Source of the DNA: Arthrobacter hankyongi | GTDB lineage: Bacteria; Actinomycetota; Actinomycetes; Actinomycetales; Micrococcaceae | Assembly (NCBI RefSeq): GCF_022012395.1 | Contig: NZ_JAKLTQ010000030.1 | Span: 1-44,923, forward strand | Length of the DNA stretch: 44,923 nucleotides | Direction of reading: 5' to 3' | Shown here: positions 12,591 through 28,627 of the stretch, in pieces | Position numbering within the stretch: the first letter of the stretch is position 1 | Layout of the letters: the number at the start of each line of letters is the position of its first letter | The notes under the pieces: model-generated | Told to the model about the DNA's origin: nothing | The model's input: only the letters and a program-made list of their open reading frames with translations | Databases searched by the model: none | Made by a program: the position numbers and the translations under genes

Positions 12591-12630
12591 GAGTCTCCTT
12601 GATGGTTCCGTTGCAGTGAGGCTAGTCACA

Positions 12631-13807: not shown

Positions 13808-13908
13808 ATGGCCTGATTTCTAAGGGTGTCGGCCCACTTTGCTCTATTGCCCAGATCGCTAATGTTCCTAGAGTTGGGGCTCAACGGGCCAGCACTGAAG
13901 CTAGCGCG
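13808..13908 (+). promoter_or_regulatory. AraC-type operator, promoter and conserved leader, copy A
   Basis: Half-sites ATGGCCTGATTTC (from 13808) and TCGGCCCACTTTG (from 13829) start exactly 21 bp apart. Exactly 36 bp after the second start lies TTCCTAGAGTTGG (13865), containing a -10-like TAGAGT (13869-13874). A leader follows (GCTCAACGGGCC, CTGAAGC) that is nearly the same in the copies at 23.7 and 25.5 kb. It drives the SnoaL-like gene. The layout fits class II activation by an AraC-family protein whose proximal half-site abuts the -35. Confidence 0.65.
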
Positions 13909-13942
13909 CCACGCCACCAATTCCTATGACAGGAGACCAGAG

Positions 13943-14503
13943 ATGTCGCTGACCGAAGCTCAGCTCTTAAAACTGTGGGACGAGAAGTCTCTCCACGACA
14001 ACCTCATGATGTACTGCAGGGCCGCAGACCGGATGGACATCCAAGGCATCAAGGACACGTACTGGCCGGACGCGACCGACGACCACGGCGGCTATATCGG
14101 CACCGGACACGGGTGGGCCGAGGCCGTCGATGGTTGGAGGGACCGTCAGTACTCGAGCAGCCACTACGTCAGCAACGTGCTGTGTGAGATCGATGGTAAT
14201 CGAGCCCAACGCGAGAGCGCCTTCATCTGCGTGTCCAAGATGGTTGATCCCGGTGTGACGATGTTCCATGGCGGCCGTTACCGCGATCTGTGCGAGAAGC
14301 GCGACGGAGTGTGGAAGGTCTTGGTGCGCACCTGCGTCTGGGACTGGTCCGACGTCCGGGAAATGGCCACGGACTGGCGCGTTTCCGACGTCCCCGAAAT
14401 GTCCAATTGGGGCCTGCGCTTCCCGGATGACCCGATCTATAAGGACTGGTCCTCCAGCGCGCCCACACCCCGACCTGCTCACCAGGATCCGGTCGTCATG
14501 TGA
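13943..14503 (+). CDS. SnoaL-like / NTF2-fold protein
   Basis: A 186-residue protein of the SnoaL-like branch of the NTF2 superfamily. Its N-terminal helix LHDNLMMYCRAADRMDIQGIKDTYWPDATDDHGG is the family's typical opening, followed by HYVSNVLCEIDGNRAQRESAF and the later strands. Such cone-shaped folds act as cyclases, isomerases, dehydratases or small subunits. ATG 13943 has AGGAG seven bases upstream; the longer frame from 13826 runs through the promoter and is rejected. The gene stands alone between its AraC-type promoter and a strong terminator. Sharing that promoter with the flavin reductase and MFS loci suggests a role in the same pathway. Confidence 0.88.
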   Translation: MSLTEAQLLKLWDEKSLHDNLMMYCRAADRMDIQGIKDTYWPDATDDHGGYIGTGHGWAEAVDGWRDRQYSSSHYVSNVLCEIDGNRAQRESAFICVSKMVDPGVTMFHGGRYRDLCEKRDGVWKVLVRTCVWDWSDVREMATDWRVSDVPEMSNWGLRFPDDPIYKDWSSSAPTPRPAHQDPVVM

Positions 14504-14508
14504 CGCAT

Positions 14509-14547
14509 GGGCCCGGCCGGTGAGGCGTTCCTAGCCCGGCCGGGCCC
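14509..14547 (+). terminator. Strong hairpin terminator after the SnoaL-like gene
   Basis: Perfect 12-bp stem GGGCCCGGCCGG (14509-14520) / CCGGCCGGGCCC (14536-14547) with a 15-nt loop, starting six bases after the stop codon, followed by TTG but no long T-run, as is common in high-GC actinobacteria. Confidence 0.75.
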
Positions 14548-14699
14548 TTGCCGCTATCGCGTCAACCGAGCTTGACCAAGTCTGCGCGGAGCCAGCCTCG
14601 AATCCAACAAATAGTTGCAGGCACCACTTGAATTCACCCTCCCGATTCAAGCAGAAGGCTTCAAGATATCGAATTGTCGGATGCTGCTGGCTTGCACTT

Positions 14700-15118
14700 C
14701 TAATATTGGATTCGTTCGCGTCACCAGTAGGACGACTTCGAGCAGTTGGTGCTACGCCGAATAGGGCGTGCTCGTCCCCCACATCAGGACCCCTGGCTTA
14801 ACGACTGGTGGTCGTGGCGCCAGGACGAACACCTCGAGGCCGGCGCCGTCTCCCTCGCCATCATCCCGCCCCCCTGTGCACACGACAGCAGCCCTCTGGC
14901 CCAACGTGAACCCGCTGTTCGACATCTTCGCCGGGCCGCGCGAGGACTTCTCGAACAAGCCAGGCTGGGTGGTGAATGCAGATGACTCCTGGTCCGGGAT
15001 TGAAAGCCGCCCTCGTTCCGGCTCCCGGATGGAAAATTCGTAGAATATGACCAGAACCGCCCTGGAGCATGGCAAGTTCAGAACAACTCGGCCTTTAGAG
15101 ATTGTCTATATCGTCCAA
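14700..15118 (+). pseudogene. Unidentified gene relic with frameshifts
   Basis: Protein-like sequence that changes frame at least twice. Frame one (about 14730-14870) gives DPWLNDWWSWRQDEHLEAG. After the C-run near 14868-14876 another frame gives LWPNVNPLFDIFAGPREDF and GWVVNADDSWSGIE. From about 15029 a third frame gives PDGKFVEYDQNRPGAWQVQ. Aromatic-rich composition, continuity of sense and loss of frame all point to a decayed enzyme gene. I do not recognise the family. Confidence 0.4.
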
Positions 15119-15190
15119 TGGCGAAAGGAGAGGACGCTGCTTCATGCCTGAAACACAGGGCATTATTGCGCTGGCAGATTTTGCGCCGGG

Positions 15191-15370
15191 ATGTCGGAGA
15201 CCGGTGTCACTAACGACATGGCCGGGCTTAAAGGCACAGATTTCGGGCGCTTCAGCGCTGGCATGCTGCCTGTATACGGCGAGGGAAGTGCGGCCCTCCG
15301 CATTGTTTATCCTGACCGACGACTGAATTGTCAGAGGCACTTCCGCAAGTGCGCCCAGCCTTTTTCTTGA
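15191..15370 (+). other. Short open frame, possible gene relic
   Basis: A 59-codon frame from ATG 15191, with a normal-looking middle section (TDFGRFSAGMLPVYGEG, then AALRIVYPDRRLN) and a C-terminus that runs into the hairpin at 15353. There is no good ribosome-binding site and no recognised family. It may be the tail of the decayed gene upstream or a chance frame. Confidence 0.25.
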
Positions 15371-15386
15371 GTGAGAAGGGCTGGGC
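15353..15386 (-). terminator. Hairpin terminator beside the SDR 3'-end relic
   Basis: GCCCAGCC-TTTTTCT and its complement AGAA-GGGCTGGGC form a long stem (15353-15386). It lies just beyond the minus-strand SDR tail at 15415, in the position that the hairpin at 17936-17977 occupies relative to the intact SDR gene. Confidence 0.6.
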
Positions 15387-15414
15387 GGCACTCGCGAACG
15401 CGGCGGAACCGTTC

Positions 15415-15487
15415 TTACTCGGCCAGGCGTCCGCCGTCGACGACCAGCTCGCTGCCGGTCATGTACGAGGCCTCGTCGGATGCACGA
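15415..15487 (-). repeat. Duplicated 3' end of an SDR gene
   Basis: About 70 bp, from the TTACTC stop region to the codons for SDEASYMTGSELVVDGGRLAE, duplicates the last 21 codons of the intact SDR gene at 17999-18748, with a single C/T difference visible over the shared stretch (GTTCTTACTCGGCC onward, up to GTCGGATGC). Beyond that the sequence switches abruptly to an IS256-type transposase. This is the scar of an insertion and recombination event. Confidence 0.85.
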
Positions 15488-15864
15488 CCTCGTCGACCCC
15501 GTTCAGCCGGCGCTGACGCTTCTTCACGATCACCGGCTCGAACGACCCGTCCCGGTCCCGCGGGACCTCGATCTCCACGGGACCGGTCGTCTCGGTCAGC
15601 ACCGTCTTGGCCCGGGTCCCGTTGCGGCAGTTCCCGGGTGCCATTGGCCACGGCGTCATGCTTTTCGTAGCCAAGGTGTTCGGTTATCTCTTCATCGAGT
15701 GCGGTCTCGATGACTGTCTTGGTCAGTTGTTTGAGCAGACCGTCAGGACCGGCCAATGCCAGACCCTGCTCCCTGGCCATCCGCACGAGTTCGCAGGCGG
15801 CTCCTGCCTCGGACAGATCCTTCAGATTCTCGCTGTTCGGCACAGCCTCAAGTGTCGTGGCCAT
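15484..15864 (-). pseudogene. IS256-family transposase, N-terminal fragment, frameshifted
   Basis: The first ~125 codons of an IS256-type (Mutator-like) transposase: MATTLEAVPNSENLKDL, then GLLKQLTKTVIETALDEEI and HLGYEKHDA. At about 15640 one extra base (ACCCGGGAAC) shifts the frame, so the family sequence NCRNGTRAKTVLTE and PVEIEVPRDRDGSFEP continues in a neighbouring frame. The central DDE catalytic domain is missing. At its 3' end the fragment joins the SDR tail, giving a 149-codon chimeric open frame (15415-15864). No active transposase is encoded. Terminal inverted repeats were not identified. Confidence 0.85.
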
Positions 15865-16187
15865 ATCCGGATCCTCCCCGCTAGGCTCACTGCCCGGCGT
15901 GTCGAGCCGAATACACCGTTATTTACAGAGTCCCCCCGGGCCGGATGCACGCGCACAGTCACACGGCAAGGGCTTTGGTGGTAGCAACGATTCGGCCGGC
16001 GCCGGACCCGAACCTCTCAAGGGGAACGAGGTCGGGATCCGACGCATGGCCCGCCGGCAATAATCGGCGGAACGGACGCCGGGGAGCGCGGGCAAGAGGT
16101 CAGGCCGGTACTGCTGTGGCGGAGGCATCCGTCTCCGGCTGCGCCATTCCGGTCGCGGCCAGGTCTTGGTGGGCGGGAGTGCGGTAC
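15865..16187. other. Intergenic region, nothing supported
   Basis: G/C-rich spacer between the IS256 relic and the small protein gene. Overlapping short frames have no family similarity. It could contain the left end of the former insertion sequence, but I could not define an inverted repeat. Confidence 0.45.
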
Positions 16188-16421
16188 TCATTGAGGAGTT
16201 TCCGGGCAGTCCCGTTCAAAGGTCATGCCATAAGGAACTTGAGGACTCAGGGCGACGGTATACGCATCGTAGCGATGCCGGGTGATCAGAACCCCGTACC
16301 GGCGGTCGGATATGGCCAGGGATTTGACTGTTTGATGTGCCGTGTCCAGTTGTTCTTGGAGGGCATTCCAGCCGGTGCCGGCAGCAGCTGTGAGAGTGAC
16401 TTCATAATTGTCGTGTGTCAT
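16188..16421 (-). CDS. Small uncharacterised protein (paralogue of the protein at 365)
   Basis: A 77-residue soluble protein of unknown function. Its C-terminal core GVLITRHRYDAYTVALS-PQVPYGMTFE aligns with GILVTRTAPGRFCVELS-DQVPYGLTWE of the protein at 365-589, and both are preceded by a helical segment of similar length. ATG 16421 has GGAAA about ten bases upstream. It is next to, but apparently not coupled with, the riboflavin kinase/Nudix pair. Two copies in 16 kb, each beside mobile or decayed DNA, suggest a lineage-specific family. Confidence 0.6.
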   Translation of the reverse strand: MTHDNYEVTLTAAAGTGWNALQEQLDTAHQTVKSLAISDRRYGVLITRHRYDAYTVALSPQVPYGMTFERDCPETPQ

Positions 16422-16523
16422 GGATCGCTGTTTCCAGGTCAGAGGAGTTGAGGAGGCCGGGCTAGGTCTTCCAAGTGGTATCGGCGACGGTTGAAGCTCC
16501 CCGCGGTCTTACCTTGGGGTTCC

Positions 16524-17342
16524 CTATGCGTTCGGCGCGGAGGTGGCCTCGTACATCTGCTTCGTTGTCATGCGGTAGCGGAGGTCGCCGGGCAGTTCCT
16601 GGGGGGTGACCCATACTTGGTGGCCTTGGGATGCTTCGAACATTTGGCGCGGGCCGTTGGCGTCGGCGGCAATCCAGAGTGCCGTGGAGTCGGGCATGGC
16701 GTCTTCGACGAAGCCGGTTCTGATGACGCGGCCGTCGTGTCGGATTTCCACCCAAGCGTTGATTAGCAGGCTCCATTCGAGGTGGTTCCGCGGTGTTGGT
16801 CGGTGCAGTCTCTTGTCGCTTTCGGGTGTCAGGGCGTCAGCGGCGGCCCCGTTGGGGCCGGTACCGGCCGCGCCTGCCTGGGCCGTGGTGGCCCAGGAGC
16901 GCACGGATGCCACGTCGTCGCGGATTTGTGCTGCGAGTTCATCGGTTCCACGGAAGCGGCGCTGGGGGCGAATGTACTCGTGCAGACTCACCTGAACGCT
17001 GCGGCCGTACAGGTCCCCGTTGAAGTCCAACAGGTGGGCTTCCAGCAGCCGTGTCCCTTTGCGGTAGTAGGTCGGGCGGCGCCCGACAGAGACGGCGGCC
17101 GCGTAGGTCCTGCCTTCACCGTCCGGCCCAAGCCGGACGGTGCCGGCCCAGACACCGTCCCGGATGTCCCCTTCCGGTATGGCGATGTTGGCCGTGGGAA
17201 AACCGAGCTCCCGCCCGCGGGCATCACCATGCTCAACGACACCCTCCAGTCTGATGGCACCACTGATTGGGTCACCTGCCGTGGCACCCGACTGTAGTCG
17301 ACTGGTACCCGAAGGTGCGTTGGCGTTGGTCAGGGCTTTCAT
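16524..17342 (-). CDS. Stand-alone riboflavin kinase with a C-terminal extension
   Basis: A 272-residue protein. Residues ~28-150 are a flavokinase domain: GRELGFPTANI is the nucleotide/Mg-binding motif, followed by GVWAGTVRL, VSVGRRPTYY and EAHLLDFNGDLYGRSVQVSL, then the closing FRGTDELAAQIRDDVASVR. The FAD-synthetase (FMN adenylyltransferase) domain of bifunctional RibF is absent, so the predicted product is FMN only. After a Gly/Ala linker, a separate ~95-residue unit (LEWSLLINAWVEIRHDGR, then DSTALWIAADANGPR) is of unknown function. Start and Nudix stop overlap by ATGA. An accessory FMN maker beside flavin-dependent enzymes is suggestive, as in riboflavin-catabolism clusters. Confidence 0.85.
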   Translation of the reverse strand: MKALTNANAPSGTSRLQSGATAGDPISGAIRLEGVVEHGDARGRELGFPTANIAIPEGDIRDGVWAGTVRLGPDGEGRTYAAAVSVGRRPTYYRKGTRLLEAHLLDFNGDLYGRSVQVSLHEYIRPQRRFRGTDELAAQIRDDVASVRSWATTAQAGAAGTGPNGAAADALTPESDKRLHRPTPRNHLEWSLLINAWVEIRHDGRVIRTGFVEDAMPDSTALWIAADANGPRQMFEASQGHQVWVTPQELPGDLRYRMTTKQMYEATSAPNA

Positions 17343-17881
17343 GGACTCACTCGCTGATCTGGCAGGTTTGGGATCGTGGTGGCCGCCCTCGGTTGGCGTC
17401 CTCGGAGGGTAGCGGGGTAGTGGCCGGTTGCCTCGAGCACGTTGTCGAGCCAGCTGACCCGGTTGGCGAAGCGCTTCGCCTTATGCGGGGCGGTCCACCG
17501 GTAGGAATCGTGTTCCCAGTCGATTCTCAGCCGCCGCTGGGAGGTGAGGGCAGTGAACGTGTGCACCAGCCAGAGCGTTCCCGACCTATCGGGGACCATC
17601 AGGTCCGGTCCTGGCCGCAGGTCCAGGAGGTCTGTGGCGTGCAGCCCTGTTTCTTCAAACAACTCTTCTAGGGCCTGTTGTTCGGGTGTTGCACCGGCTT
17701 CCACATATCCGGTGATGCAGTGCCAACGGCCGCTGTCATGGCCAAGGCTGCGGCTCCTTCTGAACAGGGCAATCCTGCCCCGCCATTCGACCACAGCAGC
17801 GATAACAACGCGGTCTGGGCGAATGTTTGACACAGCGTCAGAGGGAAGCCTGACGCAAGGAGATGCGTTTATCGTACTCAT
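17339..17881 (-). CDS. Nudix hydrolase-like protein
   Basis: A 180-residue Nudix-fold protein. The Nudix box is recognisable as GYVEAGATPEQQALEELFEE plus TGL, but the consensus GX5EX7REUXEEXGU is altered: Ala replaces the first Glu and Glu replaces the Arg of REU. The core metal-binding EEL-EE is retained, so activity is possible. Relatives hydrolyse nucleoside diphosphates linked to another group (for example FAD, ADP-ribose or CoA). Coupling to a riboflavin kinase makes a flavin-nucleotide substrate attractive, but this is inference. ATG 17881 begins just downstream of the SDR terminator, so this two-gene operon has its own promoter. Confidence 0.8.
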   Translation of the reverse strand: MSTINASPCVRLPSDAVSNIRPDRVVIAAVVEWRGRIALFRRSRSLGHDSGRWHCITGYVEAGATPEQQALEELFEETGLHATDLLDLRPGPDLMVPDRSGTLWLVHTFTALTSQRRLRIDWEHDSYRWTAPHKAKRFANRVSWLDNVLEATGHYPATLRGRQPRAATTIPNLPDQRVSP

Positions 17882-17935
17882 TATCCTATCCTTACAACCT
17901 GCTCTCAGGGGCCGAGGCTGCTGCTGCTTTCAGGT

Positions 17936-17977
17936 GAGCGCCCCGTCCTTCTTTTGATTCAGAAGGGCAGGGCGCTC
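17936..17977 (-). terminator. Hairpin terminator between SDR and Nudix genes
   Basis: GAGCGCCC-CG-TCCTTCT pairs with AGAAGG-GC-AGGGCGCTC around TTGATTC, a long imperfect stem about 20 bases after the SDR stop. It separates the SDR transcript from the Nudix-riboflavin kinase operon. Confidence 0.65.
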
Positions 17978-17998
17978 ATGAAGGAGGCGTGAGCGTTC

Positions 17999-18748
17999 TT
18001 ACTCGGCCAGGCGTCCGCCGTCGACGACCAGTTCGCTGCCGGTCATGTACGAGGCCTCGTCGGATGCGAGGAACAGCACCGTGTACGACACCTCGCGTGG
18101 ATCGGCGAACCGGCGGATGGGGAGTGTCTGAGCAAACGCTTCGATCGTCTCGGGGTCCATCAGGTTCTTCGCCATCGGAGTGAGGATCGCGCCCGGATGC
18201 ACCGAGTTAACGCGCACATTGTGCGGTCCGTACTCGATCGCGGTGGCCTTGGTCATGCCCCTGACGGCGGCCTTGGCGCCCGTGTACGCCACGCTGGGGC
18301 TGCCTGCGAGGTGGGCCATCGCCGCTGCCGACGAGATGTTGACGATCGAGCCCCCGCCTGCCTCAACCATCCCGGGCAGCACGGCGCGCATGCCCAGGAA
18401 CACCCCGGTCTGATCGACCGCGACGACCTTGTTGAACGTCTCGAGATCGAGGTCCGCGGTGAACGCTTCGGGGCCAGAGAGCCCCGCGTTGTTCACGAGT
18501 ACCGTGACCGGGCCGAACTTTTCGACAGCCGCCGCCACGACGTCCGCCCAGGAGTCTGCGTCGGAGACGTCATGCTTCACGAAGAGGGCGTTCTCGCCGA
18601 GTTCCTTCGCGAGCACGGCGCCGTCCGTCTCGTTGAGGTCGGTGATGACGACCTTCGCGCCCTCCTCGACGAACAGGCGTGCGTGCTCGGCACCCATGCC
18701 GACTGCTGCGCCGGTGATGATGGCAACCTTGTTGGTCAAACGTCCCAT
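17999..18748 (-). CDS. Short-chain dehydrogenase/reductase
   Basis: A 249-residue classical SDR, close in pattern to 3-oxoacyl-ACP reductase/hydroxysteroid dehydrogenase types. Cofactor motif TGAAVGMGAEHA (12-23), acidic residue after beta-2 (ITDLN) indicating NAD(H), structural NNAG, catalytic Ser in NISSAAAM and Tyr/Lys in VAYTGAKAA. The C-terminus SYMTGSELVVDGG is standard; its last 21 codons are duplicated at 15.4 kb. ATG 18748 has AGAGG five bases upstream. It lies 287 bp downstream of the next SDR gene and may be expressed separately. Substrate is unknown. Confidence 0.9.
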   Translation of the reverse strand: MGRLTNKVAIITGAAVGMGAEHARLFVEEGAKVVITDLNETDGAVLAKELGENALFVKHDVSDADSWADVVAAAVEKFGPVTVLVNNAGLSGPEAFTADLDLETFNKVVAVDQTGVFLGMRAVLPGMVEAGGGSIVNISSAAAMAHLAGSPSVAYTGAKAAVRGMTKATAIEYGPHNVRVNSVHPGAILTPMAKNLMDPETIEAFAQTLPIRRFADPREVSYTVLFLASDEASYMTGSELVVDGGRLAE

Positions 18749-19035
18749 GAGGACCTCTTTCGTCCAATTGTGCGCCGGCGATGCGGCGCAGAGTTGATCT
18801 GATCTATTCAGTTAGGCGGCTATTCGCCGTTGAGCATGAAGCTCCTGTTGGTGTGGGAACCTGCGACCGGCGCCTCTGATCACGGCCCTGGGTCTCCGGC
18901 GATTTCTGCACCCCACACCGCAGAGGAAGCACGGACCTGTTGCAGGACCACCATCGGGGCATCACTCAGAGCGGTGACCTCGGGCCCTGTCCGTGGGTTC
19001 AGTTGTGACGTCACTTCCTTGTTTGGAGTATGTGC

Positions 19036-19962
19036 CTATTTGGTCGACAGGTCCGCCGCGTCGGCGGGGATCTCCGACTCCATCTCCGGAGCGAGGAAAA
19101 CGAGCTGCTCGCGGAAGGATTCGCTCGCGCTGCGCAGCGGGGAGAGCGCACCCTCCTGCATGAGGGTCTCCGCGTTCTTCGCCCACACTTCGGGCGTCGT
19201 GTCGGGCACCGTGATGCGCGGCATGGCGGTGATGACCGTTCTTGCTGCAGAGACACCGCCGATCTCGAACGCCTCTCCGTAGACTGTGGTGTCCTGGTGC
19301 GCCAGCCAGGTGGCGAACGCGGCGACCGCGTCGGCAGGGAACTTCTCCTGCATCACCTTCTGGATGGCGGGGTTGGGGAAGGCGTCTTCAGTCATTGGTG
19401 TCCAGGCGACGGGCAGGATGGTGGAGATTTGCACTCCGGCCTGGCGGCCCTCGGGGATGAGGGCGTTGCCGAAGCCCCAGATCGCCGCCTTCGCGGCGCT
19501 GTAGGCCGTGTCGTGCGGCGCACCCATCAGCGCGTTCGATGACACGTTGATGAGCCGGCCGGTGCCTGAGGTGATCAGGTGTGGCATCGCGGCGCGTGAC
19601 ACCTCGACCAGGCCGCGGAAGCTCGTGTTGAACACGCGCCACCACACCTCACTGTCCATCTCCCAGAACAGGCCGAACCGGTTGATCCCGGCATTGTTGA
19701 TCACGATGTCGAGACCGCCGAAGCTCTCGATGGCCGTCTGCACGACCTGGGCGGCTTCTTCCACAATGTCGTGGCTGTCGACGACCGCGGTGCCGCCGGC
19801 GTCGGTGATCAGTGTCACCGTCTCACCGGCGCGCTCGGCGTTGATGTCATTGGCCACGACCCGCGCGCCTCGGGAAGCGAGCATGATGGCATGCTCCCGG
19901 CCCATCCCCTGGCCTGCTCCCGTCACGATCGCCACTCGGCCGTTGAACCGCAGCTCACTCAT
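19036..19962 (-). CDS. Short-chain dehydrogenase/reductase with C-terminal extension
   Basis: A 308-residue SDR. TGAGQGMGREHA (13-24) binds the cofactor, VANDIN follows beta-2, then NNAGINRFG, catalytic Ser in NVSSNALMG and Tyr/Lys in TAYSAAKAAIWGF. The last ~60 residues extend beyond a minimal SDR and resemble the tails of SDRs acting on acyl or steroid-like substrates. The start at 19962 overlaps the stop of the isocitrate-lyase-family gene by ATGA, so the two are co-translated; the longer frame to 20073 is out-of-phase overlap. It is the last gene of the cupin, lyase and SDR operon. Confidence 0.88.
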   Translation of the reverse strand: MSELRFNGRVAIVTGAGQGMGREHAIMLASRGARVVANDINAERAGETVTLITDAGGTAVVDSHDIVEEAAQVVQTAIESFGGLDIVINNAGINRFGLFWEMDSEVWWRVFNTSFRGLVEVSRAAMPHLITSGTGRLINVSSNALMGAPHDTAYSAAKAAIWGFGNALIPEGRQAGVQISTILPVAWTPMTEDAFPNPAIQKVMQEKFPADAVAAFATWLAHQDTTVYGEAFEIGGVSAARTVITAMPRITVPDTTPEVWAKNAETLMQEGALSPLRSASESFREQLVFLAPEMESEIPADAADLSTK

Positions 19963-20930
19963 GACACGTTCCTGTCTCCGACGTTGACGCTGTTCTCGTA
20001 GTCGCGGCGCAGCTCCTCTGGAAGGAATTTCTCCTCCAGCTCGCGCACGTCCGCCATCAGCGGCAGTCCCCACTTCGCGCCCCAGCCCACGTCGTACTTG
20101 GTGTCGCGCTCGGCGTTCATCCGGTCAAGGTACTCGGCGAACGGCGTGGCCTCGCCTGACTCCTTCATATCGGTCAGCAGTCGCCACACCTCGTGGATGC
20201 CGGGCACCGCGAACGGTGTCGGCATGATCGCCTGGCCGACCGCGGTCATCTCGGCGACCGTGCGGCGCCCGATGAGGGAGATCCCGTTGGCGTAATTCAC
20301 GCCTGCGGTCTCCTTCAGCGCGAGTTCGGTCTGCTCCCAGGTATGGAAACCCTCGAAGAAGATGTAGTCGATGTCCGTCTCGGCACGGTAGAGCTGGGCA
20401 CGACGGATTGCTTCCTCGACGCCGCCGCCGGCAGCACCGTACCCGTCGGTTCGGGCGACGATCACGAAGTCCTTGTCGTATTTGTCCCGCGCTTCGACGG
20501 CGGCGTTCAGCCGCCCGATCGCTTCCGCGTCGGAAACGAGCTCGATGCCCGTCTCCCCGCCTGACTTCTTCGGCTCCCGCTGGTCCTCGATGTGGATGCC
20601 CGCGACACCGGCGTCGATGAACTCGGCGACCGTGCGCTGCACATTCAGCGGTGACGGGCCGAAGCCGGTGTCGGCGTCGCAGTAGACGGGGATGTCCACA
20701 CTGCGCGCCACGCGCTTGGCATGGGCGACGACCTCCGTCAAGGTCAGCCACCCGGTATCGGAGGCGCCCTCGGCCCACCACGCCGACATGCCGCCCGAAA
20801 CCTCGAACGCGTCATAGCCGGCAGCCTGCGCCATCTGCGCGTGGACCGGCAACGCGGCGAACGGAAGGATCGACGTCTTCTCGCTTTCGAAGACCGCGCG
20901 AAGTGCCTTGCCCGGTGATGTCACAGCCAT
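19959..20930 (-). CDS. Isocitrate lyase/PEP mutase superfamily protein with altered active-site loop
   Basis: A 323-residue TIM-barrel protein of the isocitrate lyase/PEP mutase superfamily. Mg-binding Asp85 and Asp87 lie in YCDADTGFG, HIEDQ is at 113-117 and IVARTDGYG follows. At the catalytic loop the family lyases have K-K/R-C-G-H; here residues 121-125 read KKSGG, so the acid/base Cys is Ser and the His is Gly. It therefore may not be an isocitrate or methylisocitrate lyase; oxaloacetate-decarboxylase-like or C-C bond cleaving activity on another alpha-hydroxy or keto acid is possible. It sits two bases after the cupin gene and overlaps the SDR gene. Confidence 0.85.
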   Translation of the reverse strand: MAVTSPGKALRAVFESEKTSILPFAALPVHAQMAQAAGYDAFEVSGGMSAWWAEGASDTGWLTLTEVVAHAKRVARSVDIPVYCDADTGFGPSPLNVQRTVAEFIDAGVAGIHIEDQREPKKSGGETGIELVSDAEAIGRLNAAVEARDKYDKDFVIVARTDGYGAAGGGVEEAIRRAQLYRAETDIDYIFFEGFHTWEQTELALKETAGVNYANGISLIGRRTVAEMTAVGQAIMPTPFAVPGIHEVWRLLTDMKESGEATPFAEYLDRMNAERDTKYDVGWGAKWGLPLMADVRELEEKFLPEELRRDYENSVNVGDRNVS

Positions 20931-20932
20931 GC

Positions 20933-21451
20933 TTACAGCTCCTCTTTCGAATTGAATCCGACGGTCACGACGATGTAGACGCAGTCCTCGTCGTACGGGT
21001 TTCTCCAGGCGTGGGGAACGCCGGCCATGACAAGCAGGTCCCCCGGGACGAGAGTTCGTACCTTTCCACCCGGGAGTTCGAGATCGACTTTGCCCGAGAT
21101 CACGACCTCGTAATCGATGGTGTCGCTGGCGTGCATGGCTGGATCACCGTCATGCCCGACGTCCATCGTGGGATCAATCTTGTTGATATCGATGTCTTTG
21201 CCGGCCGAACGCGCCGGGAAACTGTTGACCCCAAAGGTCGAACCGTTCGGCCCCGCGAGTTGAACGCTGGCGGGCGGCCGGCCGAAGTTCTCCTTACTGT
21301 GCCCGCCCTCGACGGCCCAGTAAAACGCCCCGTTGGCGACGTCCGGCACATCGATGACGGCTGGACCGTCAACATCGAGAAAATCGGCCTCTCCTGACTC
21401 GGTCGGCCCCGCAACTACCAGACGGAATTTAGCTGGGTGTGGAAAGGTCAT
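20933..21451 (-). CDS. Cupin-domain protein
   Basis: A 172-residue protein with a C-terminal cupin barrel (about 105-165). The first motif region is HASDTIDYEVVISGKVDLEL and the second PGDLLVMAGVPHAWRNP; His and Glu residues there could bind one metal ion. Cupins of this size are dioxygenases, isomerases or hydrolases in aromatic and keto-acid pathways. ATG 21451 has AAGGAG about eight bases upstream. It leads the operon with the lyase-family and SDR genes. A strong hairpin separates it from the luciferase-like monooxygenase upstream. Confidence 0.85.
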   Translation of the reverse strand: MTFPHPAKFRLVVAGPTESGEADFLDVDGPAVIDVPDVANGAFYWAVEGGHSKENFGRPPASVQLAGPNGSTFGVNSFPARSAGKDIDINKIDPTMDVGHDGDPAMHASDTIDYEVVISGKVDLELPGGKVRTLVPGDLLVMAGVPHAWRNPYDEDCVYIVVTVGFNSKEEL

Positions 21452-21494
21452 TTACCTTCACTCCTTAGTAAAACGATGTGCTTGAAATTTTGCG

Positions 21495-21531
21495 ACCGCT
21501 CACGTTAATCCCCCCGCCCGGTTTGAGCGGT
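21495..21531. promoter_or_regulatory. Inverted repeat in the cupin promoter
   Basis: Perfect arms ACCGCTCA (21495-21502) and TGAGCGGT (21524-21531), centres 29 bp apart, lie about 45-80 bp upstream of the cupin start. Position and spacing suit a dimeric regulator. One CTGGCC motif nearby (about 21547) resembles an AraC half-site but has no partner 21 bp away. Confidence 0.35.
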
Positions 21532-21607
21532 GGATGGAAAAAGGTCGGCCAGTGAACATGACGTTGTTTCTGGCGGGCAGTGAGGGCCAGGGCCTAAAGT
21601 GCCCCCG

Positions 21608-21649
21608 CTCGGCCGCATACTGCCGTGACGTCTGCAGTATGCGGCCGAG
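21608..21649 (-). terminator. Terminator of the flavin reductase-monooxygenase operon
   Basis: Perfect 16-bp stem CTCGGCCGCATACTGC (21608-21623) / GCAGTATGCGGCCGAG (21634-21649) with a 10-nt loop, 67 bases beyond the monooxygenase stop. It ends the AraC-controlled transcript before the cupin operon, and is symmetric enough to act in both directions. Confidence 0.8.
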
Positions 21650-21715
21650 CCGGAGGGTTCGCGCTTCCGGGGACCGCGTCAGTGCCGGCTGCCGCAGCGA
21701 GCACGCGGTCCTGTG

Positions 21716-22912
21716 TCAGGCGCGGAGTCCGGCGCTGCGCATCAGCGGGAAGATCTGCTCGTTCAGGCGGTCCAGGCCCTCGTTGTAGTCGACCGTCCCA
21801 ATGCAGGTACCGGCGATACCTGCGTCGGATAGCTTCTGAAGCCCGTCGACGATCATCTCCGGCGTGCCTACCAGCGGAACAAGACCCGCTCTCAGGTAGG
21901 CTCGGACAGCTTCGTCCTTCTTGAGATCCTCGGACCGCTTGTAGTCATCCCAGTTCATGCTGCGGGCGTCACCGGATTCAACGATTGCCTGGTAGCGTGC
22001 AGCGCTTTGCCAGTCTCCCATTTCATCTTCGACGTACTTCACATAGTCCAGCGCTTCCTTCTCCGTGTCCTTGCACACGATGTGGACGCCCGCCCACAGC
22101 GCAAGATCTTCCCGGCCCGCCTCGTCTGCGTTCTTCCGGAGTTTCGAAACGGCCTGCTTACTGTGGTCCACGTCGGTGACCTGGGCAAACAGGATGTTGG
22201 CATGGTCGAACGCGAATTTCTGGCCCGCCGGACTCGAGCCGGCGCTCATCACCACGGGGCCCGGCGATTGAACGGGCTTGGGATAGGCCTCCACTGCCTC
22301 CATCTTGAAGAAGTCGCCTTCGAAGTCGAACCTGTATTCATCACCCTCGTCGGACCAGAGTCGCTCGACGATCGTCATCCACTCGTCCGCCAGCTCGTAC
22401 CGCTTATCATGCTCCGGCAGGTCGAGACCGAACATCTTGTACTCCGGCTGGTGGTAGCCCGCGACGGCATTCAAGCCCATCCGGCCGCCACTGATGTGAT
22501 CGATCGTCGCAGTCATCTTCGCAGCCGTGAGCGGATGGAAGAACGGCATGTGGCAGGTGGCAAAAACCTGGATGTTCTGGGTCGCTGCCGCCAGCCCGGC
22601 CGCCCACGTGAGCGTCTCGAACTGGCGACCCCAGGGCCGGTCGGGGCCCGAAAGCCCCTGCCAACGGGCGATCGGGATAAATCCTTCGACGCCATACCTG
22701 TCCGCTTTTTGGGCAAGGCCTTCAACCTCGCCCCAGTTACCGAGCTTGATCGTATTCTCGGCCAGCGTGAGGCCGCCCTGGCCGGTCGAGACGTTCGCCC
22801 CGAACATTGCAACTTTGAACTTGTTCGGGCCGTCCATGATCGGCCGCCGGGCACGTTCAACCGTGTGATCAGCGATAAAGTCACGGTCAACGTCGCTCGA
22901 TGTAATGGTCAT
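21716..22912 (-). CDS. Luciferase-like flavin-dependent monooxygenase (RutA/LadA/SsuD group)
   Basis: A 398-residue TIM-barrel monooxygenase of the bacterial luciferase-like family, which uses FMNH2 from a partner reductase and O2. Family landmarks are ANVSTGQGGLTLAENT near residue 39, FATCHMPFFHPLTAAKM, DHISGGRMGLNAVAGYHQPE and PVVMSAGSSPAGQKFA. The SGGR-GLN-V-G block places it with RutA, alkane and sulfonate monooxygenases. Members attack pyrimidines, sulfonates, nitrilotriacetate, pyridine or riboflavin; substrate is not readable here. Its reductase is encoded 198 bp upstream in the same orientation, behind AraC-type operator B. Confidence 0.92.
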   Translation of the reverse strand: MTITSSDVDRDFIADHTVERARRPIMDGPNKFKVAMFGANVSTGQGGLTLAENTIKLGNWGEVEGLAQKADRYGVEGFIPIARWQGLSGPDRPWGRQFETLTWAAGLAAATQNIQVFATCHMPFFHPLTAAKMTATIDHISGGRMGLNAVAGYHQPEYKMFGLDLPEHDKRYELADEWMTIVERLWSDEGDEYRFDFEGDFFKMEAVEAYPKPVQSPGPVVMSAGSSPAGQKFAFDHANILFAQVTDVDHSKQAVSKLRKNADEAGREDLALWAGVHIVCKDTEKEALDYVKYVEDEMGDWQSAARYQAIVESGDARSMNWDDYKRSEDLKKDEAVRAYLRAGLVPLVGTPEMIVDGLQKLSDAGIAGTCIGTVDYNEGLDRLNEQIFPLMRSAGLRA

Positions 22913-23110
22913 GATTGTCAGTCATCCTTTCGTGGAGATGCAGGTTTGGGTGGGTTTGGTTCAGTGCCAGTCGGTGATTTCTTCCGGCCAAAGCGTGGGC
23001 GCCGAAGAGCACCGGTTTCAGGCCCGGATTGCCGACACGTATTCAAAGAGTTGACAGAGGGCAGGACGCGTATCTGTCCGCCATTGATGCTTGCCTATTA
23101 CCGGCCTTGT

Positions 23111-23689
23111 TCAGATTTGCGACGCATCTCCGAGGGCGTGCCAGGACCGGTTGTGGTAAACCAGTGGCCTTCCGGGCAACCCGCCACCGGACAGGCCTGG
23201 TGAGGCTTCAAGCGCCTCAACGGCGACGATGGCGGACCCGCCAGCAGCCATAGAGCTCACGATCCTGCCCCGGATCCAGGCCCCGGCCGTGAGGAAGTAG
23301 GGTTCCCCGGTCTCAAGCCACGACCACAGGGAGGTGTCCGCGAACCGATCGATTCCGCTGGTCGCACAGAGTTGCGCGAGGTGCACTTCTTCCGCGCTCA
23401 GCAGATGCACAACGACCGTATCTGCCCGGCGAATGGTCGGGGTGCTGGACGAGAACTCCGAGACGGAGAAGGCCAGAATATTGGGGTCCACGCTGGCCGA
23501 AATCACAGAAGTTGCAGTCAGGCCGACCGGCCCGTCGCCGGCATCGGCGGTGACGACAGCGACGCCACCGGGATGATTGCGGAATGCGGACTTGAATTCC
23601 TCGGCCGTAATCGCCGGCCTGTCGATTTCCATGAGTTGAGTCCCCCCTGAAGCGGTGCGGACGGCCGAGGCATTGCTGCTCATGCTCAT
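23111..23689 (-). CDS. Flavin reductase (HpaC/RutF-like), partner of the luciferase-like monooxygenase
   Basis: A 192-residue short-chain flavin reductase that supplies reduced flavin from NAD(P)H. Its core FRNHPGGVAVVTADAGDGP is followed by VGLTATSVISASVDPNILAF (flavin-binding region), then LSAEEVHLAQLCATSG with ID-RFAD and C-terminal PLVYHNRSWHAL. ATG 23689 (MSMSS) has GAGGAG five bases upstream; the 340-codon frame reaching 24133 runs back through the promoter and is rejected. The 5' part and promoter are duplicated at 25.5 kb. It is the first gene behind operator B. Confidence 0.92.
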   Translation of the reverse strand: MSMSSNASAVRTASGGTQLMEIDRPAITAEEFKSAFRNHPGGVAVVTADAGDGPVGLTATSVISASVDPNILAFSVSEFSSSTPTIRRADTVVVHLLSAEEVHLAQLCATSGIDRFADTSLWSWLETGEPYFLTAGAWIRGRIVSSMAAGGSAIVAVEALEASPGLSGGGLPGRPLVYHNRSWHALGDASQI

Positions 23690-23706
23690 CGGATCTCCTC
23701 TTGATG

Positions 23707-23811
23707 TAGTTGCGCCGGCTTCAGAACCGGCCCGTTGAGCACCAACTCTAGGAACATTCGTGACCCACCTGACACGGAAAAGCAGGCCAACACCATTGAA
23801 AAGAAGGCCAA
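23707..23811 (-). promoter_or_regulatory. AraC-type operator, promoter and conserved leader, copy B
   Basis: On the minus strand half-sites TTGGCCTTCTTTTC (from 23811) and TTGGCCTGCTTTTC (from 23790) start 21 bp apart. Exactly 36 bp on lies TTCCTAGAGTTGG (23754-23742) with -10-like TAGAGT; TGTCAG 18 bp before it could be the -35. The leader continues GCTCAACGGGCC ... CTGAAGCC and ends in the GAGGAG ribosome-binding site of the flavin reductase. The direct repeat is the best preserved of the three copies. Confidence 0.7.
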
Positions 23812-24119
23812 TCTTGCGCAATCTTGTTGGATGACGTGAAATGGCAGCTCCCACCAGGCCCCGGTGCCACCTGCTCCTCCTGCAACGCCGCATCGCTGCC
23901 GGGCTAGCAGCAGATCGACTCGAGGAAGAAGACACATGCATACCCGAACCTTTCCTCCCGACAGCCGGACGGAAACGCCCTGGGCAGCAACGGTTTCCGG
24001 CCCGGCTTCCCGGGACCCGTTGGCCGGCCGGCTCCCCTACGAAGCAGGTGGACGCGGCTACGCTGGGGTTCTGAACAATCCGCCCCGACTCCATACGTCG
24101 GCGGCGTAAGGGGGCAGCG
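23812..24119. other. Intergenic region between operator B and the AraC gene
   Basis: No gene is supported. It must hold the AraC promoter. AAGGGGG lies just before the GTG at 24120. No second 21-bp-spaced direct repeat was found here. Confidence 0.45.
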
Positions 24120-25181
24120 GTGAAATTAAGCACGTATCAGAACCTGCGGCTGCCGAATTTCAGTGTTCACGCACTGCGTGGACTGCTCGAAGAAGCCGGC
24201 CTCGATTGGCGGACTGCACTCGAGAATGCGGAAATTGACCCCGACGCGGTGAACCGCCCGGGAGGCACTATTCCTGCACGAAAGGAACTGGCCTTTCAGC
24301 TGCAGTTCGTCGCGCTCACCAAGGATCGGCTCGATCTTTGGGTGAAGGCCGCGCAAACCTACACCCTGGGCTCTTTCGGCGTGCGAGGACTGGCATTCCT
24401 AACGGCGCCGACCGTCGAAGCATGGGTAGAAGTCGCAACCGGAATGGACTACGGCCCCGGCCTCATGGAGATTGCGCCGCTGCGGACACCCGATGGCGCG
24501 GTGACCGGGATGGAGATGACCTACCCCGAGGCTCCAAAAGAGTTGATCCCGTTCAGCGTCTACCGTGACTTCTGTTCCGTCGCCCGTAACCTCACGTGGC
24601 AGTACGGCGGCCCTTTCCCCTTCACCAAGGTGGAACTCCCTCTCGTAGAAGCCTCCCCCGAAGTTTTGACCTACGCCCCCGGCAACATCGACTGCGGCGC
24701 CGAAACCCTGCGGCTCTGGTGGGACCCCGCCGTATCAACACACCAGCTGCCCTTCGGTGACGCTTTCCAGCACGCGGCATGGATCAAAGCAGACAGGCAG
24801 ATTCTCGACACCCTCAGGGCGACCGGCGACTGGCCCGGTGCCGTTGAGAAGGCCATCAAAGCCGCCCCCGAGCTCAACCGCAAACTGGCCAATGTGGCCG
24901 CAACACTGCAGGTCTCCCCACGCACCCTGCGGCGCAAGCTCGAACTCACGGGCCATGAATTCGCCCAGCTTCGGGATGCAGCCCTGAATGACCTCGCCAC
25001 CGATCTGCTCTCGAATACCAATCACTCCGTCGCACGAATATCCCGCACCCTGGGCTACACCGATCCAGCCAGCTTCACCATCGCCTTCAAACGGTGGAGG
25101 GGAATGCCGCCGACGGCATTCAGGGAGGCTTCCCGCTACAGAAACAACACCACTAGGCCTGCCCCGCCAACGCTCGTCTGA
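24120..25181 (+). CDS. AraC-family transcriptional regulator
   Basis: A 353-residue regulator. Residues ~20-210 match the arabinose-binding-like N-terminal domain of the OruR/ArgR-type AraC branch (opening SVHALRGLLEEAGLDWRTAL). Residues ~255-340 hold two helix-turn-helix units: LANVAATLQVSPRTLRRKL and SVARISRTLGYTDPASFTIA, the latter with the conserved FKRWRGMPPTAFR ending. GTG 24120 has AAGGGGG just upstream. It is divergent from the flavin reductase and upstream of operator C, and is the natural candidate for binding the shared 21-bp-spaced sites. The inducer is unknown. Confidence 0.92.
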   Translation: MKLSTYQNLRLPNFSVHALRGLLEEAGLDWRTALENAEIDPDAVNRPGGTIPARKELAFQLQFVALTKDRLDLWVKAAQTYTLGSFGVRGLAFLTAPTVEAWVEVATGMDYGPGLMEIAPLRTPDGAVTGMEMTYPEAPKELIPFSVYRDFCSVARNLTWQYGGPFPFTKVELPLVEASPEVLTYAPGNIDCGAETLRLWWDPAVSTHQLPFGDAFQHAAWIKADRQILDTLRATGDWPGAVEKAIKAAPELNRKLANVAATLQVSPRTLRRKLELTGHEFAQLRDAALNDLATDLLSNTNHSVARISRTLGYTDPASFTIAFKRWRGMPPTAFREASRYRNNTTRPAPPTLV

Positions 25182-25464
25182 AGAAGAGAGCGCTGACGGC
25201 TTCCTCGCCCGGCCAATCCGCCTCACCGTGAACCTGCTGGTCAAGCTCTTCAAGGGAACACTGTCTCCCAGCCAACAGCCGGACCTGGCAGCCCATCACG
25301 AGCAGATCCGCGGAGCTCCCGGGACGCCCCATTCCCCCGGGGATCCCGGTTCCGACTGCTGCGCAAAGTCGTGGACGAAACCGCCGGAGGAAGATTCGGC
25401 TGGCAGCCAACGGCAGCGCGATGACGACAACATTCGTGTCCTGCGCGTCATGGGATTGGGCAGA

Positions 25465-25562
25465 CTGGCCTCGTTTTTAAGCTTGTTGGCCTGATTTTCC
25501 GTGTCAGGTGAATCACGATTGTTCCTAGAGTTGGTGCTCGACGGGGCCGGCACTGAAGCCGC
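25465..25562 (+). promoter_or_regulatory. AraC-type operator, promoter and conserved leader, copy C
   Basis: Half-sites CTGGCCTCGTTTTT (from 25465) and TTGGCCTGATTTTC (from 25486) start 21 bp apart; TTCCTAGAGTTGG starts at 25522, exactly 36 bp on, as in copies A and B. The section from the second half-site through GTGTCAGGTG to the leader is nearly identical to copy B, showing recent duplication. The leader has one extra G (GACGGGGCC). Downstream are the truncated reductase copy and the MFS gene. Confidence 0.7.
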
Positions 25563-25587
25563 GCACTACATCAAAGGGAGGACCCGT

Positions 25588-25767
25588 GAGCATGAGCAAG
25601 CAATGCCTCGGCCGTCCACACCGCTTCAGGGGACTCAACTCGCGGAAATCGACTGGCCGGCGATTACGGCCGAGGAATTCAAGGCCGCATTCCGAAATCA
25701 TCCTGGCGGAGTCGCTGTCACCACAGCCGATGCCGGCGGCGGGCTGGTCGGCCTGACTTCATACTGA
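25588..25767 (+). pseudogene. Truncated duplicate of the flavin reductase gene
   Basis: Begins GTGAGCATGAGCA like the start of the intact copy (ATGAGCATGAGCA), then carries a one-base insertion and a G-run of four instead of six, so the N-terminal codons are scrambled. From about 25604 the frame MPRPSTPLQGTQLAEID continues through ITAEEFKAAFRNHPGG and VAVTTADAGGGLVGLTS to a stop at 25765-25767. The flavin-binding middle and the C-terminal two-thirds are gone, so no reductase activity is expected. Its intact promoter now reads toward the MFS gene. Confidence 0.85.
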
Positions 25768-25885
25768 GGCCGCCGCCACTGGCGCGGTCCCCGAATTCGC
25801 AAGCCCTCCCCTCTGGCGCTATGCGCCACTCGCAATCAAAAACGAAGCCCAGCCGCTGCTGGGTCCACAACAAAGGCGGTCAAAG

Positions 25886-27334
25886 ATGACGCAATCCACT
25901 CTCGTCGGGGCTCGCACCGACCGAATCACACCGATAGTCGCAATACTTCTGCTCGGCGGCGTGATCATCGACATCCACTTCGCCAGCCTCTCCCCGCTGG
26001 TCGGTGTGATTGCGAAAGAATCAGGCCTGTCAGGATCGGAGATCGGTTGGATCCTTAACGCGACGATGGTTGGCAGTGCCATCTCCGTCAGCCTCACCGC
26101 ACGCATTGGCGATATCTACGGGCATCGCAAGGTCCTCCTGGCCCTCATCGTCCTGGCACTGATGGGAGCTGCCCTGGGTGCGACCGCGAATGACTTTTGG
26201 CCTCTGGTTGCCGGCCGATTCCTCCTGGGCATCGCTATCTCCGTCCCGCTGAGCTGGGGGCTCCTGCGTCCGCGGGCCACTGCGCAGCAGATCCGACTTG
26301 TCTCGCTAGCGTTCGCGATGCTGGCGGCCATGTTCGCACCGCTTGCCGTAATCCTTGGCGGCATCATGGTTGGACTAGGGTTGCCGTGGCAAAGCGTCTT
26401 TTGGGTGAGTTTCGTTCTGTACGCGGTGATGCTGATCCTCGCCCTCCTCTCACCTGAGACGCCCGCATCCGCCCGCGCGGACGTTCGGCTGGACTGGTTC
26501 GGTGGACTGGGTCTGGGGGTTTGGGTCACAGCATTGCTGGTCGGAATCAGTGGAGGCCCGGGCCTGGGCTGGACCTCCCCCACCGTGCTCGGCTCGTTTG
26601 TCTTGAGCGGGGTGGTGTTGGCTGTGTGGATCGTTCAGCAGCGGCGCACGCAGGAGCCACTGGTGTCGTTCCGCAACATGGACGTCCGCCAGGCCCTCAT
26701 CGGGTTCTCCGGGCTCTTGGCGGTTACTATCGTCGGCAACGGCATATTTTTCGTGCTACCAGCACTGCTTCAGACACCAACATCCTCCGGGTTCGGCCAC
26801 GGCCTTTCTGCCCTCGACTCCACATACGTACTGCTCGCGATGATTCCCGGCGCCGCACTTGGATATGTTTGGACACGGTGGGGACTAAAGCGCTTTGGTC
26901 CGAAGACCGTCCTGGTCGTTTCCGGAACCGGGGCGATCATGGTCTATCTCGGCCTCGCGTTTGTGCATGGCCCAGTCTGGACGTCCTGGGTGTGGGTGTT
27001 CGGCTATGCCCTCACGATCCTAAGCTGTAGCTCTGTGGGATACGCACTGGTTGCCTCGGCCGGCCGTCAGGACAATATGGCGGTGACGATTAGCATGCAA
27101 AACATCGTCCAGTTCGTCGGGTCACCAGTAACGGTCGCGATTCTATTGAATGTGTTGGTGCCCGGCGCCGGCGGATTCATTCCGGAGGCGACGTTCGCCG
27201 GTATCTTTATCGCTTTTGCCCTGATCATCGCCGTATTAGTCATCGTGTGGGCTGTCCTTGCCCCGGCGCGCGTCATTGACCGGCACGCCATCGACACGGA
27301 GACCGACACGATGCTCCAACCTGCCCGCCACTAA
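25886..27334 (+). CDS. MFS transporter (DHA2-like)
   Basis: A 482-residue integral membrane protein of the major facilitator superfamily with about 12-14 predicted segments. Motif A is GDIYGHRK (between segments 2 and 3), with RFLLGIAISVPLSWGLL after it and a second-half loop around GYVWTRWGLKRFG. ATG 25886 has AAAGGCGG a few bases upstream. It follows operator C and the reductase relic at 118 bp with no terminator between, so it is probably AraC-controlled. It is the likely importer of the pathway substrate or exporter of a product. Confidence 0.88.
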   Translation: MTQSTLVGARTDRITPIVAILLLGGVIIDIHFASLSPLVGVIAKESGLSGSEIGWILNATMVGSAISVSLTARIGDIYGHRKVLLALIVLALMGAALGATANDFWPLVAGRFLLGIAISVPLSWGLLRPRATAQQIRLVSLAFAMLAAMFAPLAVILGGIMVGLGLPWQSVFWVSFVLYAVMLILALLSPETPASARADVRLDWFGGLGLGVWVTALLVGISGGPGLGWTSPTVLGSFVLSGVVLAVWIVQQRRTQEPLVSFRNMDVRQALIGFSGLLAVTIVGNGIFFVLPALLQTPTSSGFGHGLSALDSTYVLLAMIPGAALGYVWTRWGLKRFGPKTVLVVSGTGAIMVYLGLAFVHGPVWTSWVWVFGYALTILSCSSVGYALVASAGRQDNMAVTISMQNIVQFVGSPVTVAILLNVLVPGAGGFIPEATFAGIFIAFALIIAVLVIVWAVLAPARVIDRHAIDTETDTMLQPARH

Positions 27335-28143: not shown

Positions 28144-28627
28144 GGCGCTCCCCTTGGTCCCATCAAAGGTTGTCTTCCTCGTTGTTGAGAATACTCCGAG
28201 TGAGACATATTGATGAGACAAGTCGTGGCCCGGAAATCCGGGCCGGACGGCCCGGAGCCGAACCGCCCGCCCTTGTCCTGGCAAAGGGTCCTTTGCTGAG
28301 ACAACGTTCCGAAGCTAGCCCGATGCCCAGTTGGAAATCCATAGTTTCAACCTGACAATCTCGTGTTGAAGGCTTAGTGGTCCGGTTGGATGCTTCAAGC
28401 GCGCCGCGAAATGCTGTCGCTGCTCCCACGTCCTTGGCACGTGCGGCACCCTAAGGGCCCAGCTGCGTCTCACTGTGGGCGCATATGATGTCTTTTTCAC
28501 TCAACACTCCGGACATTCCAACTATCCATGTGTGTCGCCAAAGGTGCGAGACACTTGTTGTGGTTGCGGCTCAGAGTGTTCGGACGGAACATTCGCGCCG
28601 CGTGATTGCAACGCATCTTGGAGTGGA
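28144..28627. other. Intergenic region between recombinase and Gabija operon
   Basis: No gene is supported. The minus strand carries TGTCTCA three times (around 28201-28207, 28215-28221 and 28299-28305), a possible set of recombinase-binding (res-like) elements. GTGTCGC / GCGAGACAC forms a near-palindrome at 28532-28554, upstream of gajA, and may be its operator. Base composition becomes visibly richer in A/T toward the gajA start. Confidence 0.4.

Follow-up and report, generated by a model that had tools for sequence, protein, structure and literature searches.

The AraC-type regulator encoded at 24120-25181 (+) on a contig of Arthrobacter hankyongi (NCBI RefSeq assembly GCF_022012395.1, NZ_JAKLTQ010000030.1) probably governs a local and inducible regulon of three promoters, designated A, B and C, by class II activation of the XylS-like type. 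The stretch of DNA analysed, positions 1 to 44,923 of the forward strand (44,923 nucleotides), is called the window. A probability of about 0.80 is given to this reading; it had been 0.82 and was reduced because the spacer columns of a scoring matrix were dropped after its first result, as described below. Proteins of the AraC/XylS family bind DNA as two monomers and contact RNA polymerase when their ligand is present. An earlier reading of the sequence (the original prediction) had proposed that the three promoters are controlled by the neighbouring AraC-type protein through tandem operators 21 base pairs (bp) apart, and the geometry in relatives and the co-occurrence of operator and regulator support this proposal. 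As was also predicted, and as Pfam matches agree, the genes served are a SnoaL-like gene (A), a flavin reductase and luciferase-like monooxygenase set (B) and a major facilitator superfamily (MFS) transporter gene (C).

Geometry and Uniqueness of the Promoters

Promoter A lies at 13808-13877 (+) before the SnoaL-like gene, with half-sites at 13808-13822 and 13829-13843 and a -10 block at 13865-13877. Promoter B lies at 23742-23811 (-) before the flavin reductase operon (half-sites, 23811-23797 and 23790-23776; -10 block, 23754-23742), and promoter C at 25465-25534 (+) before the MFS gene (half-sites, 25465-25479 and 25486-25500; -10 block, 25522-25534). The TGGCC/CGGCC cores start at 13809 and 13830 (+) in A, at 23810 and 23789 (-) in B and at 25466 and 25487 (+) in C, that is, 21 bp apart within each pair, and TTCCTAGAGTTGG starts at 13865 (+), 23754 (-) and 25522 (+), respectively. 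The bases are thus as the original prediction described them, and its distance of 36 bp from the second half-site to TTCCTAGAGTTGG is counted from one base earlier than the start of the core, from which the distance is 35 bp. The TGGCC-type half-sites were found at the positions given for them, and the half-site itself proved to be longer, about 15 bp, with the form TNGGCC-N3-TTT in the window, repeated at 21 bp with 6 bp between the repeats, and the form TTGGC-N4-TTTTCC in the relatives. Two direct half-sites of about 15 bp that are 21 bp apart, the architecture of XylS-like promoters, are therefore present in the window.

The -10 region of promoters A, B and C is TTCCTAGAG, and in A the -10 hexamer is TAGAGT at 13869-13874 (+). 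When the -35 element is placed at a spacing of 17 bp, it matches at 2/6 positions in all three promoters and the -10 element at 4/6, and the core second half-site would end 2 bp before that -35. Class II activation fits this geometry and the poor -35.

In the genome of 5,186,447 bases, TTCCTAGAGTTGG has three exact matches, all inside the window. For the motif search called for by the original prediction, the pattern combined a pair of TGGC/NGGC cores and a pair of TTT blocks with CCTANNGTTG, all spacings being fixed and up to three mismatches allowed; its sole matches in the genome were A, B and C, with no mismatch in any of them, and the reversed-pattern control gave 0 and 0. A simpler pattern, GGCC-N17-GGCC-N30..32-TTCCTAGAG, was not found in nine other genomes of the genus.

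The AraC-Type Regulator and Its Relatives

The regulator gene is complete and lies between promoters B and C, as had been claimed. Its product carries an N-terminal Arabinose_bd domain (PF12625, 45.6 bits against a cut-off of 27.6) and, as the C-terminal double helix-turn-helix (HTH), an HTH_18 domain (58.4 bits against a cut-off of 33.6). A partial literature search gave no paper on this AraC subfamily or cluster and, at most, one on another AraC system (CphR).

Scanning of genome contigs with the AraC protein gave 14 loci, L009-L022, with 62-77% identity, from records of Arthrobacter, Nocardia, Streptomyces, Rhodococcus and Rhizobium. In the DNA retrieved for each locus, a close homologue of the monooxygenase is present in nine of the 14, one of which, L020, has it in pieces; the order monooxygenase-cupin-PEP-mutase (PEP, phosphoenolpyruvate) is common to L009-L012, L015, L021 and L022. 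L009-L012 (Arthrobacter/Pseudarthrobacter) each have two AraC copies and an MFS gene. Both half-sites and the -10 box occur beside the AraC gene in nine of the 14 loci (L009-L015, L018 and L021), with spacings of 21 and 36 bp in L009-L015 and with one base less to the box in L018 and L021. L016 and L017 have the half-sites alone beside AraC, with no -10 block. Identity of the HTH to that of the window protein is 79-86% in L009-L018, 73% in L021, where the motif is weak, and 67-69% in L019, L020 and L022, where no motif was found. The relatives have no single -10 block (it reads CTAACG, TTAGCG or the like), and of the genomes compared this one alone has TTCCTAGAGTTGG. For 11 promoter classes of the relatives, the mean pairwise identity is 0.68 and 0.62 in the two half-sites and 0.69 in the box, against 0.44 in the spacer.

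Several features of these loci were seen by eye or as short open reading frames (ORFs). The intergenic regions between AraC and the operon in L009-L013 and L015 have a second conserved patch near AGCTTTGCATCC, which is looser in L014 and L016-L018 and was not seen by eye in the window; it could be a distal site or the promoter of AraC. Words resembling those of the half-site motif were noticed by eye in L019, where their spacings differ. In the window, a possible short upstream ORF of 57 codons (23936-24109, +) stands just before the AraC gene, and L013, L014 and L009-L012 (there before the second AraC copy) likewise have short ORFs upstream of AraC, a GAGGAGAGAG-type ribosome site preceding the majority of them. 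The short ORF upstream of AraC is a possible leader peptide.

Co-Occurrence of Operator and Regulator

A sequence-only profile, R1, was built from 17 sites of the relatives. An AraC orthologue (E 1e-90 or better) is carried by five of 395 genomes of the family, and R1 sites of at least 30 bits were found in three of these five (13 sites) and in none of the 390 others, whose best score is 25.8 bits. Among the 13 sites, seven had been used to build R1 and six had not. The two AraC carriers with no site of at least 30 bits are the window's own genome and G348. Furthermore, when the complete genomes of the 14 AraC loci are taken, 11 have sites of at least 30 bits; nine of these 11 had fed R1, and those of L016 and L017 had not. 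The co-occurrence of the motif with this AraC, which the original prediction had made a test of itself, is thus seen over the 395 family genomes, in that strong sites occur only in AraC carriers.

These results bear on the view that the repeats are operators of some other regulator, for example the IclR-type protein whose gene (12672-13427) is near promoter A, or that the AraC-type protein represses or loops the DNA instead of activating in class II mode. The half-sites without a -10 block beside AraC in L016 and L017 would suit autoregulation. However, strong sites follow the AraC orthologue across the family, the presence of the motif follows the conservation of the HTH, and two 15-bp direct repeats before the -35 are the layout of XylS and CphR in the available parts of the papers on them (PMC5481539, PMC6205950), which together make such a view unlikely.

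For the copies in the window, R1 was too local and was dropped, and ungapped matrices were used instead. The first matrix comprised all 69 columns and scored B at 30.1 (rank 1 in the window) and C at 24.7 (rank 2); among 2,999,933 random positions, three reached the score of A and none that of B or C. The second matrix was made from the 11 promoter classes of the relatives with the window excluded and the spacer columns dropped. Among the 89,710 positions of the window its top three scores went to B (34.0), C (33.2) and A (13.9), in that order, with 4.0 as the next score; at 267,652 other positions, many of them from loci resembling the motif, the highest score was 12.1.

Probable Regulon Members Away from the AraC Gene

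In relatives the motif serves similar genes, that is, those for flavin reductase, luciferase-like monooxygenase, MFS and SnoaL proteins. In the genomes of L016, L017 and L018 (Nocardia), sites of 55.6, 55.3 and 52.0 bits, none of them used in R1, precede a monooxygenase 80-81% identical to that of the window and 28.4, 25.5 and 24.6 kb away from AraC. In the fragmented assembly of L013, a 32.3-bit site precedes a 78% identical monooxygenase on another contig, a weaker case, with a distant AraC-like match (31.8%, residues 1-193) beside that monooxygenase. The genomes G394 and G393 have further sites before a Baeyer-Villiger monooxygenase (BVMO)-like gene, before genes for a short-chain dehydrogenase/reductase (SDR) and a second flavin reductase, and before an M24 peptidase-like gene; Pfam was run on the G394 proteins, and the G393 genes are their 95-97% homologues. 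In G394, one site also precedes a second MFS gene. Moreover, G393 (Arthrobacter) has a site scoring 19.5 with the first matrix before a SnoaL gene 63% identical to that of the window over residues 1-175, and because this gene has the same type of promoter, promoter A appears to be a real member of the regulon.

Origin of the Three Promoters

The region 25454-25809 (+), which contains promoter C, is an inverted duplicate of the promoter-B/reductase region with about 1.8 kb missing inside. Positions 25454-25761 align to 23823-23513 at 86% (313 aligned bp) and 25764-25809 to 21697-21652 at 80% (46 bp), so that the segment missing on the C side, about 1.8 kb long, comes from the region of the reductase and the monooxygenase. 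B and C are not independent because both sit in this one inverted duplicate. The similarity of A to B runs without gaps from the first half-site through the leader, with 14, 13, 11, 19 and 15 of 20 bases identical in successive 20-bp bins, against only 2-9 in the remaining bins. Because of this ungapped alignment, A is probably an older copy as well, and the claim of the original prediction that copy A keeps only the half-sites and the box was not borne out. Its further statement that the constant spacing is not explained by recent copying alone stands in part: B and C are duplicates and A is probably an older one, and the constancy is better shown by the relatives than by comparing A with B.

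It might then be supposed that A, B and C are merely copies of one promoter segment, whose geometry is not under selection and does not imply regulation by AraC. Besides the alignments, the -10 block, which is identical in A, B and C and different in the relatives, agrees with such copying. Against it, the spacing is constant across genera and before different genes despite the diverged spacer (0.44 against 0.62-0.69 for the sites and box), and the motif precedes the monooxygenase even where that gene sits away from AraC, so that mere copying is very improbable as the whole explanation.

The likeness of the window to the DNA upstream of the relatives' MFS genes starts at 25821 (L011) or 25848 (L009), and the MFS genes of L009-L012 are each preceded, farther upstream, by a motif promoter of their own. 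Apparently, the duplicate of promoter B landed before the MFS gene and displaced its native promoter, whereby the transporter stayed part of the regulon. Promoter C is thus a readable example of a gene apparently held under the same control through promoter replacement.

Weighing of the Regulon and Proposed Mechanism

A number of results weigh against a single AraC-controlled regulon. As described above, common ancestry links B and C, and probably A too, which means that the promoters do not count as three independent cases. With the first matrix, A (6.4) came no higher than fifth in the window, two places within other genes scoring above it, and the spacer columns were dropped only after this ranking. 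Profile R1 gave E 0.036 for B and 0.12 for C in the window and missed A, and it missed all three in the whole-genome scan, in which 150 of 5,584 first-look candidates were scored. No motif was found by the matrix beside the AraC orthologue in L019, L020 and L022, and their genomes have no site of at least 30 bits anywhere, with one 19.1-bit match for L019. The SnoaL site of G393 was not reported by R1, and a second SnoaL gene of G393 (44% identical, L079:16353-16871) has no site above 6 with the first matrix. In addition, a -35 element matching at 4/6 positions exists in A at a spacing of 16 bp and in both B and C at 19 bp, which may leave room for basal promoter strength.

Under the regulon reading preferred here, the AraC-type protein would bind as two monomers, or as the dimer that they may form, to the two direct half-sites of about 15 bp, which at 21 bp apart would lie on one face of the helix, with the proximal half-site just upstream of a poor -35. 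When a small molecule is bound, probably a substrate or an intermediate of the pathway, the protein would recruit RNA polymerase to the -10 TAGAGT. The regulon would then yield a two-component flavin monooxygenase together with cupin, lyase-like and SDR enzymes, a SnoaL-like protein and an MFS transporter. For this AraC subfamily, an operator and a regulon are thereby predicted and a change of specificity becomes testable; the predicted operator could be used to find the genes of the pathway and, by way of induction, the substrate of the luciferase-like monooxygenase cluster.

Possible Change of Operator Code and Leader Stem-Loop

All six half-sites of the window have C as the base following GGC/GAC (GGCC). 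The 54 half-sites of the relatives have G there in 48 cases and A in the other 6; they come from 27 sites, several of which are close orthologues of one another. Because the three promoters share ancestry, the six half-sites of the window may reflect few events. Residue 271 of the AraC protein is Arg in the window and Gln in the 18 other aligned AraC copies; by our alignment, we take this residue to be equivalent to Gln45 of MarA. In the available text of PMC3315485, MarA Gln45 contacts bases in the MarA-DNA structure. The replacement of Gln271 by Arg together with GGCC is suggestive of a co-change, in a single lineage and not amounting to a demonstration.

A stem-loop is found in the leader of B at 23714-23731 (-), GCCGGTT-CTGA-AGCCGGC, and 6 of 300 shuffles were as good. 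In A, a possible stem-loop lies at 13888-13905 (+), GCCAGC-ACTGAA-GCTAGC, with 5/6 pairs, which for A alone is weak evidence, and the free hairpin search preferred another, non-significant hairpin in this leader. In C, a remnant at 25546-25563 (+) has four inner pairs, and 146 of 300 shuffles were as good. Many leaders share a 6-bp stem and a loop near ANNGAA, at a near-constant distance after the promoter and shortly before the ribosome site; in relatives such leaders occur in L009-L012, L014, L077 and L080.

When 16 leaders (14 distinct) were compared, 86.9% of the cells pair, against 12-48% in slid controls, and three pairs change on both sides. These 16 were picked in register by eye from 23 aligned and 28 listed leaders, so this count leans towards structure; those omitted are four AraC2-divergent leaders (with a shifted stem), two SDR leaders, one M24 leader, L013, L015, L018, L021 and that of the second MFS gene. 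The stem shuffle control was mixed: the covariation score was reached by 1 of 500 shuffles, the number of pairs changed on both sides by 65 of 500 and the number of pair types by 380 of 500. Of the 28 leaders in the free hairpin search, the majority, with A and C among them, did not clearly outperform their shuffles. Nothing notable came from folding nine leaders as single sequences (z -2.2 to 0.6), and the one hit of an Rfam search, made with L001-L003 and L077, fell short of its gathering score and was taken as chance. As a guess, the stem-loop stabilises the 5' end of the mRNA. That the operator code has changed naturally across a whole small regulon, with Gln271, in the first DNA-reading helix of the regulator, going to Arg and the half-sites to GGCC, and that a conserved, covarying stem-loop adds a layer at the RNA level is a tentative and rather doubtful combined proposal.

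Genes Served and Neighbourhood

The SnoaL-like protein (SnoaL_4, Pfam E 6.5e-16) is encoded at 13943-14503 (+). The first gene of the B operon is that of the flavin reductase at 23111-23689 (-) (Flavin_Reduct, E 1.6e-26), followed by the luciferase-like flavin monooxygenase at 21716-22912 (-) (Bac_luciferase, E 3.6e-56) and, at 17999-21451 (-), by the cupin gene, the PEP-mutase/isocitrate-lyase-like gene and two SDR genes; the genes from the reductase through the SDRs are presumed to form one transcript. The MFS transporter (MFS_1, E 3.4e-22) is encoded at 25886-27334 (+). The luciferase-like monooxygenase scores under the NCBIfam cut-offs of SfnG, NtaA/DmoA and RutA, and the substrate of the pathway could not be named, with no equivalog model reaching its cut-off among the NCBIfam models shown. 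The broad subfamily model NF005559, which carries no substrate information, is reached by one SDR (247.4 against a cut-off of 215).

Near these genes, the frame of a BVMO-like gene at 10649-12629 (-) breaks next to a run of C, leaving two frames that overlap near 11700-11850; this is either a sequencing error or a broken gene. A 97-bp direct repeat (15387-15483 and 17971-18067, 91%) copies the 3' end of an SDR gene beside a Mutator-type transposase fragment. A resolvase gene and OLD-like TOPRIM and UvrD-like helicase genes adjoin the cluster at 27580-31315. Because of the resolvase and helicase neighbours and the presence of the AraC orthologue in only five of 395 family genomes, the cluster seems to be an accessory insertion that is possibly mobile. 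The AraC protein matches 125 plasmid records, all at less than 60% identity, with 43.5% the best among the matches listed, and plasmids gave five partial matches to the reductase/monooxygenase DNA.

Comparison with Known Systems

The best NCBIfam match of the window regulator is the QhpR equivalog NF049968, at 86.9 bits, far under its cut-off of 250, and VirS is among the solved structures matched by its DNA-binding domain (E 0.0003). In the available part of PMC4514859, MtlR of Pseudomonas fluorescens likewise has two similar 15-bp blocks upstream of the -35, at -72 to -58 and -50 to -36, but with a spacing of 22 bp and in mannitol metabolism. CphR of Rhodococcus sp. YH-5B is, like the regulator proposed here, an actinobacterial AraC-type activator of a two-component monooxygenase operon; the accessible portion of PMC6205950 describes two 15-bp repeats at -35 to -69 and activation supported by knockout and complementation. 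However, the CphR half-site is TGCA-N6-GGNTA, its pathway is that of 4-chlorophenol and its target is one operon (PMC6205950, same portion). For XylS and the Pm promoter of the TOL plasmid, the portion of PMC5481539 at hand gives two homologous 15-bp direct repeats before the promoter, each with a 5' box and a 3' box, which are bound by two monomers, the proximal site being occupied first. The window also has two repeats of about 15 bp with 6 bp between them, but the present system differs in its half-site, TTGGC-N4-TTTTCC instead of TGCA-N6-GGTA, in serving several separate promoters, and in the gap of 2 bp that would separate the end of the second half-site from a -35 set at a spacing of 17 bp. 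The predicted regulon is thus a multi-promoter case of the well-known AraC/XylS arrangement of regulator and operator.

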